NCBI RefSeq assembly: GCF_016097555.1
Contig: NC_054708.1
Span: forward strand, 6,026,334 to 6,090,333
DNA length: 64,000 nt
Reading direction: 5' to 3'
Source: Gigantopelta aegis
Taxonomy: Eukaryota; Mollusca; Gastropoda; Neomphalida; Peltospiridae
This document shows positions 7,755-63,541 of this stretch, in pieces. The notes beneath the pieces were generated by a model, which saw only the letters and a program-made list of their open reading frames with translations, ran no database searches and was not told the DNA's origin. The number at the start of each line of letters is the position of its first letter. The stretch's first letter is position 1. The position numbers and the translations under genes are program-made.

Positions 7755-8202
7755 CTGTAAAACATGAAAACAAAAACCTGTTAACATGAAGATAAAATTA
7801 CAGTCAGTCAGTGTGTCCGTAAAATATAAAACAACACTGTTAAAATTAACAATACATAAACAGCCAAGCAGGGCTAAATGGTGAGTAGGGAAGAGGGAGT
7901 GGATCTGAAACACCACCCCCCCCCCCCCCCCCCAACAAACAAAAAAACAAACCAACAACAAACAAACCGAAATGTCTTTTTCGTTTCGTTTCGTTTAAAA
8001 ATATATAATGAAACAGCAGTTAATTACTAATAGAATATGATATATTATGAGCTATAATTGTCAGTTTTGACAATTTGTAACGTGTAATATGATATCACTT
8101 CTTATAACTTGCTTGCACAATTATGTTTTTGTATGTTTGTAAACATAACAGTAAATGCCATGGTTTCGAATCGAGTGTTTTGGTTTACACTATTCAGGGT
8201 CA

Positions 8203-8500
8203 GGGGCGGGAAGTAGCCCAGTAGTAAAGCGCTCGCTTGATGCGCGATCGGTTTACGTTCGATCCCCGTCGATGGGCCCATTAGGCTATTTCTCGTCACA
8301 GCCAGTGCACCACGACTGGTATATCAAAGGCCGTGGTACGTGCTATCCTGTATGTGGGATGGTGAATATAGATCTCTTGCTACTAATCAGAAAATGTGGC
8401 GGGTTTCCTCTCTATGACTAAAAAATTATCATGTTTGACATCCAATAGCCGATGATTAATAAATCAATGTGCTCTAGTGGTGTCGTCAAACAAAGCAAAC
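8203..8500 (+). mobile_element. Near-complete tRNA-derived SINE, head I, tail type B
   Basis: The head carries tRNA-like promoter boxes: AGTAGCCCAGTAGTAAAGCG (A-box region) and GTTCGATCCCC (B-box). The body is the shared GCCAGTGCACCACGACTGG module. The tail is type B: TTTGACATCCAATAGCCGAT, then TGTGCTCTAGTGGTGTCGT. It is non-coding. Confidence 0.9.
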
Positions 8501-8879
8501 TGTTTTAATAGACCGAGTGTTTCACAGTAAAGATTCGTAACTAACGATTAAGAGGCTTATATTTTTTAAGAATCCACTTTGGCCATGTTGATAAAACGCT
8601 GGGCTGTCAAGTGCCATACGAATCGGTGCAGTAGGTTCGAAACCTGCCAATTGACACTTGATATTGTTTTTAATAATTAAAATTATGGCCGTTGTGTGTT
8701 AGCAAAGACTGCTGGATAACATTTATTAACTGATATTCGTTACTTCTCGTTTGAAGAGAAATGTTTACCATTTGTAGTTCGAATGACTAAACCGCACCGA
8801 GATGCAAACCGCTTTAAGATTTAAATTCTTATCTATAATGAACGGATGCGACACATGCACTCGTTAATGTCAGATTGTC

Positions 8880-12619: not shown

Positions 12620-13412
12620 TAGTTCCATCCAGCGAAAATAAATTATAATTTGGTTAATCTACAAACCTGTAACACACTTAGATCACGTTTTTATCAAATG
12701 GAGTGAAAAAGCAGGTTTTATATCGATAAATACCATGGGAATCCCCATGTCCCAATTGCTTGAAATAATTTTGAAAGTTAGTATTCTGATGTCACCGGTA
12801 GAAACACAACAATGCCTACGTCACGACAAATTTCACAGACTTGGGGTGCGTTCGTTTCACCTCTCCTGGACATGTTCCAACTGTTCTGTCCTGGTTGTAT
12901 CCCCTCTCCAGATATCGTAAGACTTAGCAAAATTATTGGTTTTAAGGGTTTGTAACGTTTTGTATTGAGACACTTACTTGTCTGAACTTTATTGTTACTG
13001 AAAATGTTCACGAACTGTGAAGAAAAAATCTCACAAATGAACAACAACAAATCGGATGTTGATTGCGCGAACCGTCCACGAGAAAACAAACCGAACCAAA
13101 ATGATAACGGTCACGTGTTATACCAACGTCTGTGACATTGAAATGGAAATATCCCCTCTAAAAATAGATTGGACCTCGCTTGCTTAACGGTTTTTTCTTG
13201 ACAACACGTTTTGTGAAAAAATGCAAAAAATGCATTTCGTGGTTTTACAAACATCAGGATTACCAAAAAGCACTTCAGGTAAATGGAAACGTGTATTCTA
13301 AATAATAAAATGTAAGTAAAGTGTAATTTTATTTGTGAAAAATGGGGTTTAATAGCGAAAAACAACGCCGTAATGGTTAACAAATAAACGTAACTAGGGT
13401 GTGTCCCTTTAA

Positions 13413-14640
13413 CTAAAATAAAATTTGAGTGCAAATAATATGGAACTTGCTGCCAAACCAAACCAAGGTTACTAGCCATAGAAGATACGGCAAATATTAC
13501 AAGCATCAACCAAAATGCGATACTTTTGCTTGTAAAATGATACATATTTTACCATGCCTGTGAAATGTTCCCACAGTTTACTTCCCTGGGAACTGTTTAT
13601 AGTATAGTTTATATGTTGTACTTAAATTTCATCTCACTCTGACATAGAGGGTATAAATTTAATGTTAAGATTTATTGCGACCACAAATTGGGAGATGTAT
13701 CTTGCCGCAAAAACTAAACTTCCGATGACAAAGCAAAAAAAAAAAAGGTTGAAAAAAGTTGGTATTTTAAAGGAAAAAAAAAGAAGGAAAAATAGGACAA
13801 ACGCCAAAAAGTAGGAAAAGTTTGATCGTTGAACAGCCTGGTCTTGTTACCACAATATAATTCACCAGATACTCGTAGGATGCGATTTAAAAACACAAAT
13901 TGTTTGCTTTTTGTTTTGTTTTTGTTTCGTTTTTGTGTTTGTGGGTGGGAGTTGGTCGATGTCAGTAATGTATAGTTTAGAAAAGAGTAAAAAATTGAAA
14001 ACCAAACAAATGGTAGTTCGAAAAGTCTAGTGGAGTCTACTCTATTAGAGCACAACAAATATTACAGTATCACATTTCACCTAGTTTTGATGGGCACACC
14101 CTGAGGCGTGATGGCAGTGGGTTTCTTCTCCAAAACTTTACTTTAAGTCGTAAAAAAACCCATATGTTAGCGACCTAACAGCCGTTGCGAAAATCGTGTA
14201 GGGGCCTACTGGGGTGTCCTTTCATTCCCTTTCTGTTTTGGATGCGCACAAAATGGCTTCAGTTTATTTGTTTATTATTATTATTGACAGAATGTGTAGC
14301 AGGTTAAGTGGGTACACACTCGGTGTCCTCTGTCAATGCACCACTTCACACAAATTAGATCGGAGCATCACCCTGACCGCACCGGAAGCGTTGATGAGTC
14401 GACTATCACACCGCCATGTTGATTTGGGACAAACGGAAGTGACACCCAGCACGTGCGTGGGTTGAGCTGGACCTATGACCTGTTGTTGCAGCAGATATAT
14501 AAATATAAATATATACATCCAGGGGAAGTTTATTTTCCTGTTTCTGTTTCTTGTGTCTTTGTTTTCATATCACGTAACAGATAAAAAGAGTCCACAATGA
14601 GAAGACTCCTTTCATATGTAACCAAAATAAAGACACATTT
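13413..14640. other. Non-coding stretch, nothing specific recognised
   Basis: AT-rich with an A-run near 13,736. The part at 14,330-14,470 is more GC-rich and has CACGTG-like boxes, but no coding exon or repeat copy was recognised. Confidence 0.5.
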
Positions 14641-24851: not shown

Positions 24852-25045
24852 GTCAAGTCTTCTTTATATAAAAATTGGGTCTTCTCCAAAATCCAAGGCA
24901 CATTAATATCGGGACTTCTTCAAGAACCAGGATAAAAATTGGGTCTTCTTCAAAATCCAAGGCACATTAATATCGGGACTTCTTCAAGAACCAGGATATA
25001 CTACTATTGATTCTTCTTCAAGACCAGGGTATAGTGATTAATACT

Positions 25046-25165
25046 CAGAGGCGGATTTAGGGGGAGCCAGGGGTCCGCCCCCCCCCCCCCCCCACCTTCA
25101 GTTTTGCGAGTTATAAATTCATTATATATTAATTTTCAGTTTCATTGACATTCCGCCTCATGTCA
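25046..25165. mobile_element. Short GGCGGA-type repeat copy
   Basis: It begins AGAGGCGGATTTAGGGGG, has a C-run, then TTTTGCGAGTTATAAATTC and CATTCCGCCTCATGTCATT. It shares these blocks with the copy at 28,293-28,463. Its right end is cut short. Confidence 0.6.
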
Positions 25166-25308
25166 TTAATATTTGGTCTTCTTCGAGAACTAGGGCACAG
25201 TAATATTGGATCTTTTTCAACAATTAGGGCACAGTAATTAATATTAGGTCTTCTTCAAGGACCACGGCACAGTAATTAATATTAGGTCTTCTTCAAAGAC
25301 TATAGCCT

Positions 25309-25523
25309 TCCGGCCAGTGCATCACAATTGGTATATCAAAGGTCGTGGTGTGTGCTATCCTGTCTGTGGGATGGTGCATATAAAAGACTCCTTGCTACTA
25401 ATGGAACAATATAGCGGGTTTCCTCTCTAAGACTATATATCTGAATTATCAAATGTTTGACATCCAATAGCCAATGATTAATAAAGCAATGTGCTCTAGT
25501 GGTACCGTTAAACAAAACAAACA
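25309..25523 (+). mobile_element. SINE, head missing, tail type B, inside the 34-bp array
   Basis: Body from CCGGCCAGTGCATCACAATTG to the type B tail TTTGACATCCAATAGCCAAT, TGTGCTCTAGTGGTACCGTT. Array units lie on both sides, so it inserted into an existing array. Confidence 0.88.
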
Positions 25524-27712
25524 ATCTTCAAGGACCAGAATACAGTAATATATATTGGGTCTTCTTCAACAATAAGGGTACAGTAATATTAGGTCTTCTT
25601 CAAGAACCATGGCACAGTAACATTAGGTCTTCTCCAAAACACATGGTACAGTAATATTGATTCTTCTTCAAGAACCAGGGTACAATAATATAGATTCTTC
25701 TTCAATAACCAGGGTACAGTAATATAGATTCTTCTTCAATAACCAGGGTACGGTAATATAGATTCTTCTTCAATAACCAGGGTATGGTAATATAGATTCT
25801 TCAAGAACCAGGGTACAGTAATATTGATTCTTCTTCCAGAACCAAGGTACAGTAATATAGATTCTTCTTCAATAACCAGGGTACAGTAATATAGATTCTT
25901 CTTCAGTAACCAGGGTACAGTAATATTGATTCTTCTTCAAGAACCAGGGTAAAGTAATATTGATTCTTCTTCAAGAACCAGGGTACAGTAATATAGATTC
26001 TTCTTCAATAACCAGGGTACAGTAATATAGATTCTTCTTCAATAACCAGGGTACAGTAATATAGATTCTTCTTCAATAACCAGGGTACAGTAATATAGAT
26101 TCTTCCAGAACCAGGGTTCAGTAATATTGATTATTCTTCCAGAACCAGGGTACAGTAATATAGATTCTTCTTCAAGAAGCAGGGTATAGTAATATAGATT
26201 CTCTTCAAGAACCAGGGCACAGTGATATTGATTCTTCTTCCAGAACCAGGGCACAGTGATATTGATTCTTCTTCCAGAACCAGGGTACAGTAATATTGAT
26301 TCTTCCTCCAGAACCTGGCTACAGTAATATAGATTCTTCTTCAAGGACCAGGGCACAGTGATATTGATTCTTCTTCAAGAACCAGGGTACAGTAATATTG
26401 ATTCTTCTTCAATAACCAGGGTATGGTAATATAGATTCTTCAAGAACCAGGGTACAGTAATATTGATTCTTCTTCCAGAACCAGGGTACAGTAATATAGA
26501 TTCTTCTTCAATAACCAGGATACAGTAATATAGATTCTTCTTCAGTAACCAGGGTACAGTAATATTGATTCTTCTTCAAGAACCAGGGTAAAGTAATATT
26601 GATTCTTCTTCAAGAACCAGGGTACAGTAATATAGATTCTTCAATAACCAGGGTACAGTAATATAGATTCTTCTTCAATAACCAGGATACAGTAATATAG
26701 ATTCTTCAAGAACCAGGGTACAGTAATATTGATTCTTCTTCCAGAACCAGGGTACAGTAATATAGATTCTTCTTCGAGAACCAGGGTATAGTAATATAGA
26801 TTCTTCTTCAAGAACCAGGGCACAGTGATATTGATTCTTCTTCCAGAACCAGGGCAGTGATATTGATTCTTCTTCCAGAACCAGGGTACAGTAATATTGA
26901 TTCTTCCTCCAGAACCAGGGTACAGTAATATTGATTCTTCTTCCAGAACCAGGGTACAGTAATATAGATTCTTCTTCAAGAATCAGGGTACAGTAATATA
27001 GATTCTTCTTCCAGAACCAGGGTACAGTAATATTGATTCTTCTTCAATAACCAGGGCACAGTGATATTGATTCTTCTTCAATAATCAGGGTACAGTAATA
27101 TTGATTCTTCTTCCAGAACCAGGGTACAGTAATATTGATTCTTCTTCAATAACCAGGGTACAGTGATATTGATTCTTCTTCAATAACCAGGGCACAGTGA
27201 TATTGATTCTTCTTCAATAACCAGAATATTGATTCTTCTTCCAGAACCAGGGCACAGTGATATTGATTCTTCTTCCAGAACCTGGCTACAGTAATATAGA
27301 TTCTTCTTCCAGAACCAGGACACAGTGATATTGATTCTTCTTCAATAACCAGGGCACAGTGATATTGATTCTTCTTCAATAACCAGAATATTGATTCTTC
27401 TTCAAGGACCAGGGCACAGTGATATTGATTCTTCTTCAAGAACCAGGGTACAGTAATATTGATTCTTCTTCAAGAACCAGGGCACATTGATATTGATTCT
27501 TCTTCAAGAACCAGGGTACAGTGATATTGGGTATTCTTTCAGAACCAGGGCAGAGTGATATTGGGTCTTTTTCCAGAACCAGGGCAGAGTGATATTGGGT
27601 CTTCTTCCTGAACCAGGGCAGAGTGATATTGGGTCTTCTTCCTGAACCAGGGCACAGTGATATTGGGTCTTCTTCCTGAACCAGGGCACAGTGATATTGG
27701 GTCTTCTTAAAG

Positions 27713-44575: not shown

Positions 44576-45645
44576 AGTGTTTTCCCTAGCTTGTTTTAGC
44601 ATGGTGCAGCACCATGCCTCAATACTCTAGCACCATCTTGCCTTAATCAGCACCATGCTGCCCTGAGATTAAAGGTATTATTAATTAATAAAATATGCCT
44701 TTTATATCTTTTGCCATTCATTTATTAAAGCAAGCACGTAAATTACATTAATGTTATTTCAATTAATTTTTGTGTTTTTTAAAGGGACACACCCTAGTTA
44801 CGTTTATTTGTTAACCATTACGGCGTTGTTTTTCGCTATTAAACCCCATTTTTCACAAATAAAAGTGCACTTTACTTACATTTTATTATTTAGAATACAC
44901 ATTTCCATTCACCTGAAGTGCTTTTTGGTAATCCTGATGTTTGTAAAACCACGAAATGCATTTTTTCACAAAACGTGTTGTCAAGAAAAAACCGTTAAGC
45001 AAGCGAGGTCCAATCTATTTTTAATATCACAGACGTTGGTATATCATGTGACCGTTATCATTTTGGTTCGGTTTGTTTTCTCGTGCACGGTTCGCGCAAT
45101 CAACATCCGATTTGTTGTTGTCCATTTTTGAGATTTTTCTTCACAGTTCGTGAACATTTTCAGTAACAATAAAGTTCAGACAAGTAAGTGTCTCAATACA
45201 AAACGTTACAAACCCTTAAAACCAATAATTTTGCTAAGTCTTACGATATCTGGAGAGGGGATACAACCAGGACAGAACAGTTGGAACATGTCCAGGAGAG
45301 GTGAAACGAACGCACCCCAAGTCTGTGAAATTTGTCGTGAGGTAGGCATTGTTGTGCTTCTACTGGTGACATCAGAATACTAACTTTCAAAATTATTTCA
45401 AGCAATTGGGACATGGGGATTCCCATGGTATTTATCGATATAAAACCTGCTTTTTCACTCCATTTGATAAAAACGTGATCTAAGTGTGTTACAGGTTTGT
45501 AGATTAACTAAATTATAATTTATTTTCACTGGATGGAACTAGGGTGTGCGGCTTTAATAAAAAAACAAGTGTCCCCAAAATGGTGAAAATGCCCCAAAAG
45601 TGTTTGGTCTACCATGCCTTGCCTAATTTTTAGGTTAACAACTTG
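44576..45645. mobile_element. TTTCCCTAG-ended element split by a TTAA transposon
   Basis: The left part, 44,576-44,778, matches 37,790-38,030, and the right part, 45,558-45,645, matches 38,030-38,118 (GTTTGGTCTACCATGCCTTG). The insertion at 44,779-45,557 sits between them. Confidence 0.8.
44779..45557 (+). mobile_element. TTAA-type DNA transposon (MITE), unbroken copy
   Basis: It runs from TTAAAGGGACACACCCTAG at the left to CTAGGGTGTGCGGCTTTAA at the right, 779 bp including both TTAA. It matches 12,620-13,412 in the opposite orientation along its whole length. Several open frames over 60 codons occur in the same place in both copies, but none looks like a transposase. Confidence 0.88.
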
Positions 45646-51924: not shown

Positions 51925-53270
51925 ACTGATTTTATACTAGGCTAGATACTGGATACGGCCGTGCTATTTCTAGTGTCATTCACCGGTTTATGCATTCTAA
52001 TAAATATCTGTACATTTTAAGTATTTCAATCCCAATAATAGTTCTGTAATTAAAACAAAAGATTTGACTTGAGCCTAGACATCGTGTACCTGGTAACATA
52101 TCTACATTAAATATGCATACTAGACTCTTTTAATAAGTTTTCCTCAAATTGGTGTTTTTAGGGTTTATATAATGAATGTTGAAATATTTAACAAATACAT
52201 GTATATCATTGATGTTCACACCAGGCGACTTGCCAGATTAAGCCTTGAAATTCCGTTATAAAACGCCAAAAGTTACCTCCCATATTGAATCTGATACATG
52301 TGGTTGACATGTATAAATATCACGAATTTCTTGAATGTAATGCCATTGGACAATTTTATTATATCACTGTTTACCTTGAAATTAAAATCTGTCATATTTT
52401 CAAGTCTGTACACATTGCATGATTAACATAGAAGAACAACCCAGTTGTATCATCCGTTTAACATATTCTGGTCATTTGCATACAAATGTAAATACAAATG
52501 TATAAGCTCAGTATAAACAACTGTACCAGCACTTTCGTGAGCATCGCTTAGACTGTCTGACATAAAGATAAGATTGTTTCTATAAACGTACTGGAAAGAG
52601 ATACTATAGCTAGTATGGGGTTGATACGGTAAGACACCGTACTCGTGGAAAGTACATACTATGTCAAGAATGGGTGAGCATTTATCTGTCACCTTCTGAT
52701 TTCTGTCTATACAATTATTGATGAAATCAGAACAAATAGATACAGTATATTATACGCCTTAAGTCTTCTTCCTCCACTCATTTGGCAGCCACCAGTAACT
52801 GGTTTAGACCGGTTTCGTGCAGAGCTGACTAGTCGAGGAACTAGATTCCCCCACAGTGACGTCATGCGTGGGTACATGTGATCTTTGACCGACATGTTGG
52901 TGTTCAGAGCGAAGTACGATTCAGAAGTGTCGTTGAACTCTGGCCAGCCATTTGGAATCTTGTTTGAAAGACTGGCACTGGGGTTTCTGTAACAAAGAAC
53001 AATATAAATTTGCTTCAATATTATGGTTATGTTTAGGTACGTTTAACATGTGCAACGGCAGACTCGTGTGCAGGTTATGCGGTGAAGGTTGGGGGTGTCT
53101 AGACTGTGGTATGTGAAGTTTTTAGGAGCTTTGAGTCATGCTCCTCTGGATAATATGTGGTAAACAAAACTGAGAAAGAAACTTCGTGTTGAGCAGGGGA
53201 ATCGACCCCCAAGATAATCCGTACACGCACCTGAACAATTAATAATTCGGGAATATAATAATAATGTTGT

Positions 53271-53480: not shown

Positions 53481-54094
53481 AATGGCCTAATAATTTGTAG
53501 CCTTTACTTCAACAACATCGTGTTAATACACGATTGTATCTAAAACACGTCCATCTATGTTTGTCCAATCGTGCTGGGGATTTTTTTATTTATTGGATAT
53601 GACCTAGGATCAGCCAGTCGTATATTTTGAAATTGTTAACACAGGTACATGTGTAAATAAATATGTGTTATCAAAAATAGAGAATGATGTTATTACCAAC
53701 GAGTGTGTAAGAAAATGACTTAATACTGAAAAGACCGTTATATATACATTTAATTCGCTTTTAGATTTGTTATGGCTGTATAAAATACATAGATCTAATT
53801 AATGTAGGACTGAATGCCAATAATTTGGCAGTGATTACGTGTAGCATGGTTAACAGCCTGATACTGTGGATGAGGATTATTATATAGTTTTAGTTTTATT
53901 GCAGTCACCATTTGCTATTGCTACATGTGTGTTCCCTTCTTTAATTCCGTCAGTATAGTATATAACAAAGACTATGTCTACGTACCTTGTTTTGGCAAAA
54001 TCCGTCAAAAACGTTATGAGAACATTCGATATTTCCATTTCCGATGGAGATATTGTAGTGGTAACAGCTCCAGTAAAAGCCTTCATCTGAAACT

Positions 54095-54758
54095 TGGTAA
54101 AGCCGAATGTGTAGATCAGGTCAAAACCGTGTATCATGCCTGAAAACAGAACGTATGGTAAAGCCCAATGTGTACACCAGGTCAAACCGTGTAACATGCC
54201 TGGAAACAGAACGTATGGTAAAGCTGGATGTGTAGACCAGATCAAACCGTGTATTATGCCTGGAAACAGAACGTATGGTAAAGCTGGATGTGTAGGCCAG
54301 GTCAAAACCGTGTATCATGCCTGAAAACAGAACGTAATGTAAAGCCAGATGTGTAGACCAGGTCAAACCGTGTATCATGCCTGGAAACAGAACGTATGGT
54401 AAAGCCGGATGTGTAGACCAGGTCAAAACCGTGTATCATGCCTGGAAACAGAACGTATGGTAAATCCGGATGTGTAGACCAGGTCAAAACCGTGTATCAT
54501 GCCTGGAAATAGAACGTATGGTAAAGCCGGATGTGTAGACCAGGTCAAAACCGTGTATCATGCTTGGAAATGGAACGTATGGTAAATCCGGATGTGTAGA
54601 CCAGGTCAAAACCGCGTATCATGCCTGGAAACAGAATGTATGGTAAAGCCGGATGTGTAGACCAGGTCAAAACCGTGTATCATGCCTGGAAACAGAACGT
54701 ACGGTAAAGCCGGATGTGTACACCAGGTCAAAAGCGTGTATCATGCCTGAAAACAGAA
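54095..54758 (-). repeat. Exon-derived 60/61-bp minisatellite, 11 units, in the esterase pseudogene
   Basis: Read on the minus strand, each unit holds a 3' splice acceptor (CTGTTT(T/C)CAG) followed by the first 45 bases of the catalytic-histidine exon (GCATGATACACGG to GGCTTTACCA). The unit nearest 54,095 runs into the real exon. Most units are 61 bp; three lack one T and are 60 bp. The outermost unit joins an intron sequence (AAATTTATAATTTC) also found next to the array in the right copy. Confidence 0.95.
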
Positions 54759-55102: not shown

Positions 55103-55430
55103 GTTATTAGTAGAGTCCTAGTCCCTGCTACGTCACTCTCTGTCGTTAGTAGAGTCCTAATCCGTGTTACGTCACTCTCTGTCGTTAGTAGAGTCCTAGT
55201 CACTGCTACGTCACTCTCTGTCGTTAGTAGAGTCCTAGTCCCTGCTACGTCACTATCTGTCGTTAGTAGAGTCCTAGTCACTGCTACGTCACTCTCTGTC
55301 GTTAGTAGAGTCCTAGTCACTGCTACGTCACTCTCTATCGTTAGTAGAGTCCTAATCACTGCTACGTCACTCTTTGTCGTTAGTAGAGTCATAGTCACTG
55401 CTACATCACTCTCAGTCGTTAGTAGATATT
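55103..55430. repeat. 39-bp minisatellite, 8 units
   Basis: The unit is GTTAGTAGAGTCCTAGTCAC, then TGCTACGTCACTCTCTGTC. 39 bases equal 13 codons, so both strands carry long frames (VVSRVLVTATSLS on plus, TLLTTESDVAVTR on minus). It sits in the pseudogene intron and is absent from the right copy, so it arose after the duplication or was lost there. It is not considered coding. Confidence 0.93.
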
Positions 55431-56660
55431 GGCAAATCCAAATTTATCCCCTGTCCAATCGACCTCACCAAAATTCCATCCACAATAAGCTGCGAGAAGC
55501 TTAACATACGAGTATTGAGAATGACTGTTCACGGCGAAAGGTGACCTGGATACAGAATAATGTTGGATTATGTCAAATCTACTGACTGAGAGCGCCATGA
55601 CGGCGCTGACAGTAAGATCATGTTTTTCTTGGACTGGTCACACTGCCACCAACTGTTTGGCCAATTCATTGGGAACAAAATGTAAAGTAATTATAGAAAT
55701 ATAACAATACTTTGTTTGGAGACACCATTTTGATAGTGTTAATGGTTTTGTTGATCATATTAGTAAAATCATATTTGACACCACCTTGTTTTGAGCTTAA
55801 TGATATTACATTGTAACAATAAACAGTACACGTTTCAGTTTCAGACTTACCTTTGAAAAATCCGAGCCAGATTTTGATCATGATCGAACAGACAGACATA
55901 CGTCTTTCCTGACCCTGGGACGTCTGAGTGTGTCCTAGCCAGATCTGACGCAGACGTCACAAAGACGTCATTGATGAACCTAACGGCGGAATCCTTTTTA
56001 ATCAGTTCTGTTGTGAAATTCAGAGGGTAAATATATTCAAACGTTAACTTTGGATGCCATATACATCCTTTACATATGGTGTTATAAGTTCCGACTGACA
56101 CGTCTTCTACATGCTAAAAGCGTGTTTGTCTCAAGTATTGCATTTCTTGTCATTCTCCATGGCATGTTGTTAGGTTGTTTTTTTTTAATATAAGAAATTG
56201 TTTGTTTTGGAGGGTTTTGTTTTGGTAGTTACATCTCTAGTGTTAGCTGGTTTCCTAAGTTGATGTATTTCGAACAGTAATTTTGTTCAGTTTTAATATC
56301 AATTTATTCCAAATATTTCATTACGTTTCATTGGTACAGTACCCCCGAGCAGGCAAGATCATTTCCAATAAATGGGTTCAAACTCCAAAAATGCCCCATG
56401 AATCCAGTAATTTGCTTTTAGATAAAACTCTTTATTAAAATCTGCATGGTACCGAGTCCTTATATTTGGTCTCAAGAGTCCTATCTGGTTGTATCTATGG
56501 GCACTATTTGACAATTAGTGTACACTTTGAAAATACCATTTACAATGTTTTATAGACAGAAGCCATGTGTATGTCCACTCATTTCCTTTCTGTCCTTGGT
56601 TTATTAGACCATCTTCAGTAGCACTCGCTGTTATTGACTGTATAAACCTTCAGCGTTATG

Positions 56661-56950
56661 AAGTTTGTTTTGTTTAACGACACCACTAGAGCACATTGAT
56701 TTATTAATCATCGGATGTAAACATTTGGTAATTTTAACATATAGTCTTAATGAGGAAACCCGCCACATTTTCCCCGTTAGTATCAAGGGATCTTGTATAT
56801 GCACTATCCCACAGACAGGATAACACATACCACGTCCTTTTATATACCAGTCGTGATGCACTGGGTGGAACGAGAAATAGCCTAATGTGGGATCGAACCC
56901 TGACCGACCGCGCATCAAGCGGGTGCTTTAACACTGGGCTACGTTCCGCC
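56661..56950 (-). mobile_element. Complete tRNA-derived SINE, head I, tail type B, with 13-bp TSD
   Basis: The minus-strand head GGGCGGAACGTAGCCCAGTG, the body with GTGCATCACGACTGGTATAT and the type B tail ACATCCGATGATTAATAAAT, TGTGCTCTAGTGGTGTCGTT. A perfect 13-bp duplication, CTTCAGCGTTATG, flanks it at 56,648-56,660 and 56,951-56,963. It is a young insertion. Confidence 0.95.
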
Positions 56951-56963
56951 CTTCAGCGTTATG

Positions 56964-60050: not shown

Positions 60051-60336
60051 CTATATACTAGTAATTATTGATGAAATCAGAACAAATAGGCACAGTCTGG
60101 AATACGACGTAAGACTTCTTCCTCCACTTGTTTGGCAGCCACCAGTATCTGGTTTAGACCGGTTTCGTGCAGAGCTGACTAGTCGAGGGACTAGATTCCT
60201 CCAGAGTGACGTCATGCGTGGGTACATATGATCTTTGACCGACATGTTGGTGTTCAGAGCGAAGTACGATTCAGAAGTGTCGTTGAACTCTGGCCAGCCA
60301 TTTGGAATTTTGTCTGAAAGACTGGCACTGGGGTTT
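60051..60336 (-). CDS. Last exon of the intact cholinesterase-type carboxylesterase
   Basis: The acceptor is TTTGTTACAG before AAACCCC. With the previous exon it reads FAKTG-NPSASLSDKIPNGWP, the usual TGNP motif near the end of the esterase fold, then WPEFNDTSESYFALNTNMSV. The tail has an SGG-type small-residue site followed by a hydrophobic end (RLCLFVLISSIITSI), stop TAG. A hydrophobic C-terminus after a small-residue site suggests GPI anchoring at the cell surface, as in some cholinesterases; this is inference. Confidence 0.88.
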
Positions 60337-60730: not shown

Positions 60731-60884
60731 CCTGTTTTGGCAAAATCCGTTAAAAACGTGATGAGAACATTCGATATTCCCCTTTCCGATGGTGAGATGG
60801 TGGTATCAGCAGATCCAGTGAAAGCTTTCACCTGCAGCTTGGTAAAGCCGAATGTGTAGACCAGGTCAAAACCGTGTATCATGC
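60731..60884 (-). CDS. Catalytic-histidine exon of the carboxylesterase
   Basis: 154 bases, with acceptor CTGTTTTCAG before GCATGATAC and donor CAGG|GTATGT. It encodes GMIHGFDLVYTFGFTK, with His as the third member of the catalytic triad (compare the conserved HGYEIEFVFG of cholinesterases), then the stretch to TFLTDFAKTG. It joins the large exon in frame (AAA G|GC ATG) and the last exon in frame (ACA GG|A AAC). The acceptor and first 45 bases are repeated nine more times upstream. Confidence 0.9.
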
Positions 60885-61450
60885 CTGAAAACAGAACGCA
60901 TGGTAAAGCCGGATGTGTAGACCAGGTCAAAACCGTGTATCATGCCTGAAAACAGAACGTATGGTCAAGCCGAATGTGTAGACCAGGTCAAAACCGTGTA
61001 TCATGCCTGGAAACAGAACGTATGGTAAAGCTGGATGTGTAGACCAGGTCAAAACGGTGTATCATGCCTGAAAACAGAACGTATGGTAAAGCCGGATGTG
61101 TAGACCAGGTCAAAACCGTGTATCATGCCTGGAAACAGAACGTATGGTAAAGCCGAATGTGTAGACCAGGTCAAAACCGTGTATCATGCCTGGAAATAGA
61201 ACGTATGGTAAAGCCGGATGTGTAGACCAGGTCAAAGCCGTGTATCATGCCAGAAAACAGAACGTATGGTAAAGCCGGATGTGTAGTCCAGGTCAAAACC
61301 GTGTATCATGCCTGAAAACAGAACGTATGGTAAAGCCGGATGTGTAGACCAGGTCAAAACCGTGTATCATGTCTGAAAACAGAATGTATGGTAAAGCCGA
61401 ATGTGTAGACCAGGTCAAAACCGTGTATCATGCCTGAAAACAGAACGTAT
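60840..61450 (-). repeat. Exon-derived 61-bp minisatellite with ten splice acceptors, in the esterase gene
   Basis: There are ten units. On the minus strand each has TACGTTCTGTTTTCAG (16 intron bases) plus 45 exon bases, GCATGATACACGG to GGCTTTACCA, including the catalytic-His codon CAC. The last unit (60,840-60,900) is the real exon start, where TTTACCA continues into AGCTGCAGG; in the others TTTACCA joins TACGTTC. Most upstream units have TCC where the real exon has TTC (Phe). 61 bases shift the frame by one per unit, so splicing to the next upstream acceptor reads HDTRF and stops. Confidence 0.95.
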
Positions 61451-62414
61451 AAATTTCACGCAATTTCGAATGACAAACAAACCACATTGGGATCGCCGTT
61501 TTATAAAGTACGGATTAGATCGCATTCCAACTAAAAGCGGAGTTTATTGTCCATTCTAACGTTGACCTTTCCATTGACAGGTCTATGGAAAGAAACACAA
61601 CATTTGTTAAACGACATCTGAGCACATTGTAAAATGCAGATAGTTGGTGTCTAAGCTTTATGGTGTGTCTAACGGAATACTAGAAATTATCTTTTTATAT
61701 TATCACTTCCATAGACAGCGCAGTACAAACCCAGGTCTTTGGTGTACCAGACGTGGCAACATGGTTCACATAACATAATTATTCAAGATAAAATCATGCC
61801 ATTAACGTAGAAAGGAATTCTGAAAGAATGATGTTACAAATGATGTAATGCAGTTTAACAAACTGTTGTTTTTCTTGGGATGTTGGGGGGGGGGGGGGGG
61901 GGGGGGTAATGAGATGGAATTAATAATCATTTTAGAAAAAGATTTAACAATTGTATAACGCTGTTATTTAAAGTCATCGGCTTTAGTTCTCGAGGTACCT
62001 GCACCTTCTTCTATTATGGAAATACATGAGTAACGAGAAAGGCACTGGATTTGCCAATATATAATATTTTTGTACGAGAATGAACTAGGTATCTTTACGT
62101 GCAATAACCAAGCTAATTTTTGGTCGACTATATGCAATTTACCGCTAAAAAGGATGTGGATGTCAAAAATAAATGATCACGTGCTTTAATTTCTAGTTTT
62201 TGTCGAAATAAGGTTCACACACACAACCTGAGGACACACCCCCAGCTATCTTGGCGTGTCTGACCAAGACGGTGAGTTAGTAATTAGTTCTTGGTGCTTT
62301 TGTGATTACTATTTAAAGGGTGTGGCGGACAAAAATGAGGGACAGTGCCTTTAATGGTTGATAGAGCAACAAACTAATATTATTTTACAGTACACATTTC
62401 AGTTTCACACATAC
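61451..62414 (-). other. Intron upstream of the array
   Basis: Contains an old SINE relic (61,580-61,750) that matches the position of 54,855-55,040 in the other copy, and a G-run at 61,886-61,906. No other feature recognised. Confidence 0.6.
61580..61750 (-). mobile_element. Old SINE relic, paralogous to 54,855-55,040
   Basis: Diverged blocks ACAACATTTGTTAAACGACA, TCACTTCCATAGACAGCGCA and TTTGGTGTACCAGACGTGGC in SINE order. Shared position in both esterase copies marks it as older than the duplication. Confidence 0.6.
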
Positions 62415-63541
62415 CTTTAAAAGAAATCCGAGCTAGCTTTTGATCGTGATTGAACAGACAGAGGTACGTCTTCCCTGACCCTTGGACCTCCGAATGGGAC
62501 CTAGCCAGATCCGATGCAGACCTTACAAACATGTCATTTATAAACTTAACCGCGTAATCCTTGTTAATAACGTTTGTTGTGAAGTCCAGCGGGAAAATAT
62601 ATTCAAAAGTTAATGTGTTCAATAGTTCCTTACTTTGGACACCATATCGATTCTTTACATATGGTGTTATAAGTCCAGACTGAAACGTCTTCAGCATTGT
62701 AAAATCTTGTGTTTCTGAAGTATTGAATTTCTTGTCATTCTCCATGGCGATATAGTAGAAAGCTCCACCTTCCACGTTGTTTACTGACATCATGAGGTCT
62801 ACGTCTGGGAAACTGGTTGTCTGTAAGTAATCTCGGTCAACAAGTAGGTCATAAAGATCTCGTGGAATGAAGTCTCCGTCAATTGTTGGTGTATACAGGA
62901 AATCAAGAACTCCAACCTTAACATTATCACGGAGAGGCCAAGAAGCCTTATATAGAACTTTTGCGTCTATATCCTGTAAACACTTTTTAATATTATTGTG
63001 AAGGTTCCTCTTGGAAACAGTCATATGATTCGTTGGGAAGCAGTCGACCAGTTTGGCAAGTTCGTAGGTTACAGGAATTGGATTCTTTTTAATACAGTAA
63101 TATAAACTCTGTGCGACTGCTCTCTTAAACAGACCTTTGGGTTTTGCAGACATTAGATGCATATTAACACTGCACGCCCCGGCAGACTCCCCAAATATTG
63201 TAACTTTCTCTGGATCCCCTCCAAAATATAAAATGTTATCCTTGATCCAGCGAAGGACTGTCAGTTGATCCCAAAGACCATAGTTTCCCGGAATGACGTC
63301 ATCCGAAGTGCTGAGAAAGCCAAATGGTCCGAGGCGATATTGTATGACCACCATGATTACGTCGCCTTGGATTGCTAGACTGGAACTGTCGAACTGCTGC
63401 GCCTTTCCCGTAACGAACCCACCGCCGTGAATCCAGACCATGACGGGTTTTGGGTTTTTAGAAGAGTGATTTGTGGGAGCGTAAATATCTAGGAATACAG
63501 TCTTCCTGTCCATCCACACGTCCATCTTCAAAAACCACTGT
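62415..63541 (-). CDS. Large catalytic exon of the carboxylesterase (alpha/beta hydrolase fold)
   Basis: The acceptor TTTTCAATAG at 63,542 and the donor AAAG|GTATGT at 62,414 bound 375 codons. It begins at QWFLKMDVW, so one or more exons for the N-terminus and signal peptide lie beyond the window's right edge. Landmarks by exon residue: LDIYAPT at 17-23; oxyanion-hole HGGGF at 38-42; [11 protein letters not shown] at 68-78; nucleophile Ser119 in FGESAGA; and Glu in [10 protein letters not shown]. With the His exon this completes the Ser-Glu-His triad, so the enzyme should hydrolyse carboxylic esters. Substrate and acetylcholinesterase activity cannot be inferred. Minus-strand order with the other exons gives an in-frame product of about 521 aa from this exon onward. 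The open frame beyond 63,541 is intron. Confidence 0.92.

Follow-up and report, generated by a model that had tools for sequence, protein, structure and literature searches.

The window analysed in this work is a stretch of 64,000 nucleotides (nt) from the deep-sea gastropod Gigantopelta aegis (contig NC_054708.1, positions 6,026,334 to 6,090,333 of the forward strand), and the positions given below are counted from its first letter. The window contains a carboxylesterase/cholinesterase-like gene (gene A) in which a 61-base-pair (bp) piece lying across an intron-exon border is repeated ten times (array A). The features of gene A are listed below.

62415..63541, minus strand: exon A (1127 nt), which holds the catalytic Ser and Glu and in which the family frame is broken near the 5' end
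63494..63510, minus strand: stretch of the frame change, a net 2-base deletion relative to homologues directly after a conserved EDC (from tblastn of the homologue P0002 and the alignment)
61434..62414, minus strand: intron A-B, 981 nt to the first (decoy) acceptor and 1530 nt to the last
60840..61450, minus-strand gene: array A, ten 61-bp units with the catalytic His codon in each (from Tandem Repeats Finder)
60731..60884, minus strand: exon B, 154 nt via the last acceptor and followed directly by the donor GTATGT; its junction is found in the public protein P0001
60051..60336, minus strand: exon C, which includes the stop codon

With the last acceptor of the array (60884), exons A, B, and C form one continuous frame, and their borders are GT-AG. 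The joined reading of 521 amino acids aligns along its full length at 100% identity with P0001 ('cholinesterase 2-like', Gigantopelta aegis, 562 amino acids), which includes the last-acceptor junction and is presumably a computed model. The Pfam domain COesterase (PF00135) was matched at residues 16-472 (E=9.1e-95, 319 bits against a curated cut-off of 27), and the solved structures matched by sequence are neuroligins, bile-salt lipases, and cholinesterases. Across ten aligned proteins, S160 is invariant while E298 and H420 are nearly invariant (P0001 numbering), and we take these residues to be the catalytic triad. They align with the homologues as Ser in GESAG, Glu in NNVEGG, and His in GMIHG. 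An earlier reading of this DNA from its letters alone (the sequence-only reading) had proposed the three in-frame exons with their splice sites and a complete triad, and both are confirmed. Gene A thus shares the domain match and the triad positions with the carboxylesterase family. However, unlike the family, the assembled gene lacks the N-terminal frame and the EDC cysteine.

The boundary-spanning array and the broken frame of gene A as assembled

Tandem Repeats Finder reports array A with a period of 61 bp, 10 copies, 94% matches, and 0% indels. In the direction of the transcript, each unit consists of 16 nt of the 3' end of the intron followed by 45 nt of the start of the exon, so that the tandem unit crosses the intron-exon border in the gene model that uses the last acceptor. 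The acceptor AG is kept in nine of the ten units and is absent from the unit at 61250. The sequence-only reading was therefore right about the ten units at 60840-61450 and about the 45 exonic bases with the triad His in each of them. Its claim of an acceptor in every unit is borne out by the AG of nine units and fails for the unit at 61250.

The nine upstream acceptors (one of which, 61250, has no AG anyway) all lead to a stop codon about 78 nt downstream, which is followed by a further 135-623 nt of exon. RHDTRF precedes the stop for seven of them and variants of RHDTRF for the other two, which bears out the earlier description of a decoy leading to HDTRF and then a stop. With all nine reaching that stop, the inclusion of units as in-frame variants of the exon was ruled out. 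Transcripts that stop that far before an exon end are targets of decay by the usual rule, so transcripts leaked to the upstream acceptors would be decay targets.

The same reading had described a working-looking esterase gene, and this description does not stand for gene A as assembled. The segment with the EDC motif at the start of exon A lies in a different frame from the rest of the exon. The next-best homologue, P0002, was matched by tblastn in two frames (residues 29-52 in frame -1 at 63565-63494; residues 48-412 in frame -2 at 63510-62410), and gene A therefore has a net 2-base deletion relative to the homologues. The E-D-C motif is present in nine of the ten aligned proteins, and P0001 is the one without it. 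The alternative frame of exon A carries the conserved EDC segment up to the break and soon afterwards reaches a stop codon, so that no uninterrupted frame runs through gene A from the N-terminus of the family. Apart from this, exon A has an open frame of some 375 codons.

The first residues of P0001 are unlike the family in the alignment and were not found within the window by tblastn. When its first 41 residues are read one frame over, they fit the family motif around RFSRP at a score reached by 9 of 3000 shuffles, whereas in the other two frames 1803 and 2150 of 3000 shuffles do so. They look like an upstream exon translated in the wrong frame. These comparisons of sequence place a break near the 5' end of gene A as assembled.

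A tandem paralogue with an array of its own

A tandem paralogue lies 6.7 kb from gene A and carries an array of the same repeat at the corresponding boundary (array B). Both the paralogue and array B were missed by the sequence-only reading. The features of the paralogue are listed below.

55851..56163, minus strand: exon A' remnant, 3' part only, with 19-nt and 2-nt deletions relative to gene A and a broken frame
54095..54758, minus strand: array B, 11 units of the repeat of array A, with the AG intact in 10 of the 11
53986..54139, minus strand: exon B'
52707..52986, minus strand: exon C', with 9 differences from exon C in the first 210 nt

Most of exon A is missing from the paralogue, which is truncated and frameshifted. 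The mean number of positions at which two units differ is 4.4 between the arrays, 3.0 within array A, and 5.5 within array B. Further copies were absent from the window among self-BLAST hits of at least 150 bp (E up to 1e-10), as were further copies of the gene by tblastn with eight homologues and further arrays of the 61-bp repeat in the table of tandem repeats. An intron of the paralogue also holds a 39-bp array of 8 units (55107-55426), with long open frames across it on both strands.

The divergence between the two copies carries the mark of past constraint. The part of exon B outside the array (35 codons) has a synonymous divergence (dS) of 0.55, a non-synonymous divergence (dN) of 0.11, and a dN/dS of 0.20. 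The comparison of exon A' with exon A (63 codons) gives a dS of 0.57, a dN of 0.12, and a dN/dS of 0.21. These 98 codons together contain 27.5 synonymous and 24.5 non-synonymous changes, where a synonymous share of 24% is expected under neutrality (one-sided binomial p=9e-6, computed on 27/52). The first 70 codons of exon C have a dN/dS of 0.29. Because of this synonymous excess and the low dN/dS between the copies, at least one of the two lineages probably functioned as a gene through much of the period that followed the duplication.

The copies are not equally diverged along their length. The exonic part of the last unit is identical at 44 of 45 positions, compared with 90 of 109 in the remaining exon B (Fisher p=0.008), and its 14 codons hold no synonymous difference, compared with the dS of 0.55 in the flanking exon. 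The intron between exons B and C aligns between the copies at 61% with 625 gap columns, and the intron between exons A and B gave no self-BLAST match of at least 150 bp outside the array. Since the copies differ far less in the last unit and exon C than elsewhere in exon B, while their introns have diverged, the arrays have presumably been homogenised between the paralogues via gene conversion. The last exons (52713-52985 and 60054-60335) differ at 9 of 210 nt at first and then at 16 of 72, and this jump in identity is likely a conversion tract with an abrupt end.

The array may be older than the gene duplication, although not clearly so. The order of units shared by arrays A and B is weak (5000 shuffles each; p=0.016 when all units of array B were shuffled, p=0.051 when only interior units were), and the last unit is far less diverged than the exon that flanks it. 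To judge from these sequences, conversion after the duplication is at least as likely as an array that predates it.

Acceptor choice and competing explanations

The sequence-only reading had raised a puzzle, as the spliceosome usually takes the first good AG after the branch point. The correct acceptor is indeed the last of ten. However, the rule counts from the branch point and is not broken here. Two branch-point-like yUnAy motifs precede the acceptor, at distances of 43 and 20 nt, in nine of the ten units of array A and in all units of array B but the first; the first unit of each array has one such motif, 17 nt from the acceptor. The acceptor is the only AG of the consensus unit, and one extra AG occurs in the unit at 61067 of array A and in those at 54320 and 54259 of array B. 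For a branch point at the motifs that immediately precede the last acceptor, the last AG is the first one encountered, so the first-AG rule would remain intact.

The geometry of exon B suggests how the last acceptor could be chosen. Human data indicate that, for exons whose flanking introns are longer than about 250 nt, splicing favours those sites that lie nearest to each other across the exon (Carranza et al., 2022, PMC9225289). The same paper relays the finding of Reed & Maniatis (1986) that the upstream of two competing acceptors is chosen, and it confines that rule to the intron-defined mode. The introns flanking exon B measure 1530 nt (to the last acceptor) and 394 nt, and the exon is 154 nt long with the last acceptor compared with 215-703 nt with the decoys. 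As both introns exceed 250 nt, the exon-centric rule of proximity predicts the 154-nt exon over the decoys. The selection of the last acceptor would then need no special signal, as exon definition should favour the shortest exon. Folding of the RNA was also considered as a selector and rejected, as the 740-nt stretch with the array forms a less stable fold than shuffled versions of it (z=+1.86), all 20 of which were at least as stable.

The explanation that we favour, with a probability of about 0.72, is a boundary minisatellite without a function of its own in a tandem pair of esterase genes, with the last acceptor chosen by exon definition and the gene in decay. A 61-bp piece astride the intron-exon border of a carboxylesterase/cholinesterase-like gene would have been tandemly duplicated into a minisatellite. 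The array, common to both members of an old tandem pair, would have been homogenised between them, and most likely has no function on its own. Exon definition would take the acceptor nearest the downstream donor, which is that of the last unit with the 154-nt exon, and the upstream units would be treated as part of the intron. If an upstream unit were now and then used, the product would shift frame and stop early. As for the genes themselves, the paralogue is now a pseudogene and gene A as assembled has lost the family frame, so that the array today probably lies in a decaying gene. The duplicated boundary piece amounts to a splicing experiment set up by nature and is not a proven switch.

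Several points weigh against this explanation. Constraint is not uniform in exon C, where dN/dS is 1.31 in the last 24 codons (partly past the stop codon of the paralogue) and 0.60 overall. The AG is kept in 19 of the 21 units; homogenisation explains this, and selection could too. The use of the last acceptor is something we infer from the sequence, while the exon-definition rule rests on human data, in which upstream acceptors are reported to win with short introns (PMC9225289). The 2-base deletion could have arisen in the assembly; gene A may then be intact, since the remaining exon A stays open over some 375 codons.

This last point leads to the strongest of the rival explanations, which is improbable but has a real chance of being right. 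Gene A would be fully functional, its deletion an error of the assembly, and the array a harmless passenger. The open codons of exon A are also conserved, every position of the triad is present, and the comparison of the copies speaks for past purifying selection. However, the assembly was built from PacBio reads with wtdbg2 and polished by Racon and Pilon, the polishing including short reads (PMC7895826), and the family N-terminus is absent from P0001, whose first 41 residues resemble an upstream exon translated in the wrong frame (9 of 3000 shuffles reach the score).

Length-based control of the enzyme, as proposed by the sequence-only reading, is a good deal less probable. The upstream acceptors would compete with the last one, and more units would give more truncated and decayed transcripts and less enzyme. 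Leakage is plausible because all but one of the nine upstream units in array A keep an AG in a context nearly that of the last acceptor, and every leak would meet an early stop. However, the broken reading frame of gene A lowers the likelihood that copy number controls active enzyme, the paralogue is truncated, and the amphioxus arrays of this type are reported as not interfering with regular splicing (PMC3087553). A stronger version, in which the array is kept and homogenised as a ladder of splice acceptors whose length sets the share of early-ending transcripts and whose copy number dials the esterase output, appears more doubtful still.

It is very improbable that array A is an artefact. 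Repeats may be distorted in long-read assemblies. However, the units of array A differ among themselves, the subreads of over 4 kb exceed the 611-bp array (PMC7895826), and an artefact is unlikely because the paralogue holds another array, of 11 units, whose variants are its own. The exact copy numbers of both arrays may be off. The least probable explanation is the stepwise removal of each 61-nt unit as a GC-AG mini-intron, with CAG/GCATGA at the unit border serving as acceptor and weak GC donor: CAGGCATGA fits six of the nine positions of the donor consensus and is the best donor-like site of the consensus unit, but GC donors normally require a near-perfect context, 61 nt is very short, and splicing straight to the last acceptor would make these steps unnecessary.

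Related structures and other repeats in the window

By its sequence, the array is the same kind of structure as the 'mirage' of amphioxus, now in a mollusc. According to a later amphioxus paper, the mirage of the amphioxus Adh gene was originally described by Canestro and colleagues in 2002. In the amphioxus gene BflGb6, the unit is reported to run from the 3' end of an intron into the first part of exon 2 and to occur 6 times in one haplotype and 3 times in another, and the authors suggest from Adh3 data and from reverse transcription polymerase chain reaction (RT-PCR) on the globin that regular splicing is undisturbed (PMC3087553). As described there, amphioxus mirages resemble the snail arrays in that many but not all units keep their splice signals and in that both bear signs of concerted evolution. 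The units of BflGb6 are 150-160 bp long, whereas those of the snail arrays are 61 bp long and present in 10 and 11 copies. The length varies between haplotypes in amphioxus and between paralogues of one assembly in the snail. The snail arrays also differ from BflGb6 in lying in a mollusc esterase, in two paralogues, and in an apparently broken frame, and they are known from sequence, whereas BflGb6 is accompanied by RT-PCR.

A related case is reported in human segmental duplications, where 27 intron modifications were driven by internal tandem repeats (De Grassi & Ciccarelli, 2009, PMC2812944). In both cases the copy number of a minisatellite alters the structure of duplicated genes, including exon-intron boundaries. 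However, the human repeats lie in recent paralogues with transcript support. In the open-licence literature, we found no report of mollusc minisatellites at intron-exon borders, of tandem acceptors with a variable number tandem repeat, or of intron gain with minisatellites. With the findings in this work, minisatellites of this boundary-spanning type are known from a mollusc as well as from amphioxus, and the snail has them in two paralogues, with units that are shorter and more numerous. A row of ten nearly identical acceptors offers a clean natural test of exon definition against first-come acceptor choice.

The window is rich in tandem arrays, and an array across an acceptor is therefore unremarkable in it. 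There are 25 arrays with a period of at least 20 (some are simple repeats counted at a longer period), which cover 11.9% of the bases. A 34-bp minisatellite of about 65 copies lies at 25552-27712 (consensus ATATTGATTCTTCTTCAAGAACCAGGGTACAGTA), and shorter arrays related to it lie just upstream at 24868-25296. An inverted pair of about 820 bp with 93% identity (12620-13441 and 44751-45541) is possibly a mobile element. A dispersed family resembling short interspersed nuclear elements occurs at 2630, 15611, 17196, 21079, 23749, 28940, and 43176, in both orientations, with lengths of about 180-330 bp and identities of about 76-90%. Another dispersed repeat family was detected by self-BLAST near 8199-8501, 25308-25522, and 56662-56951.
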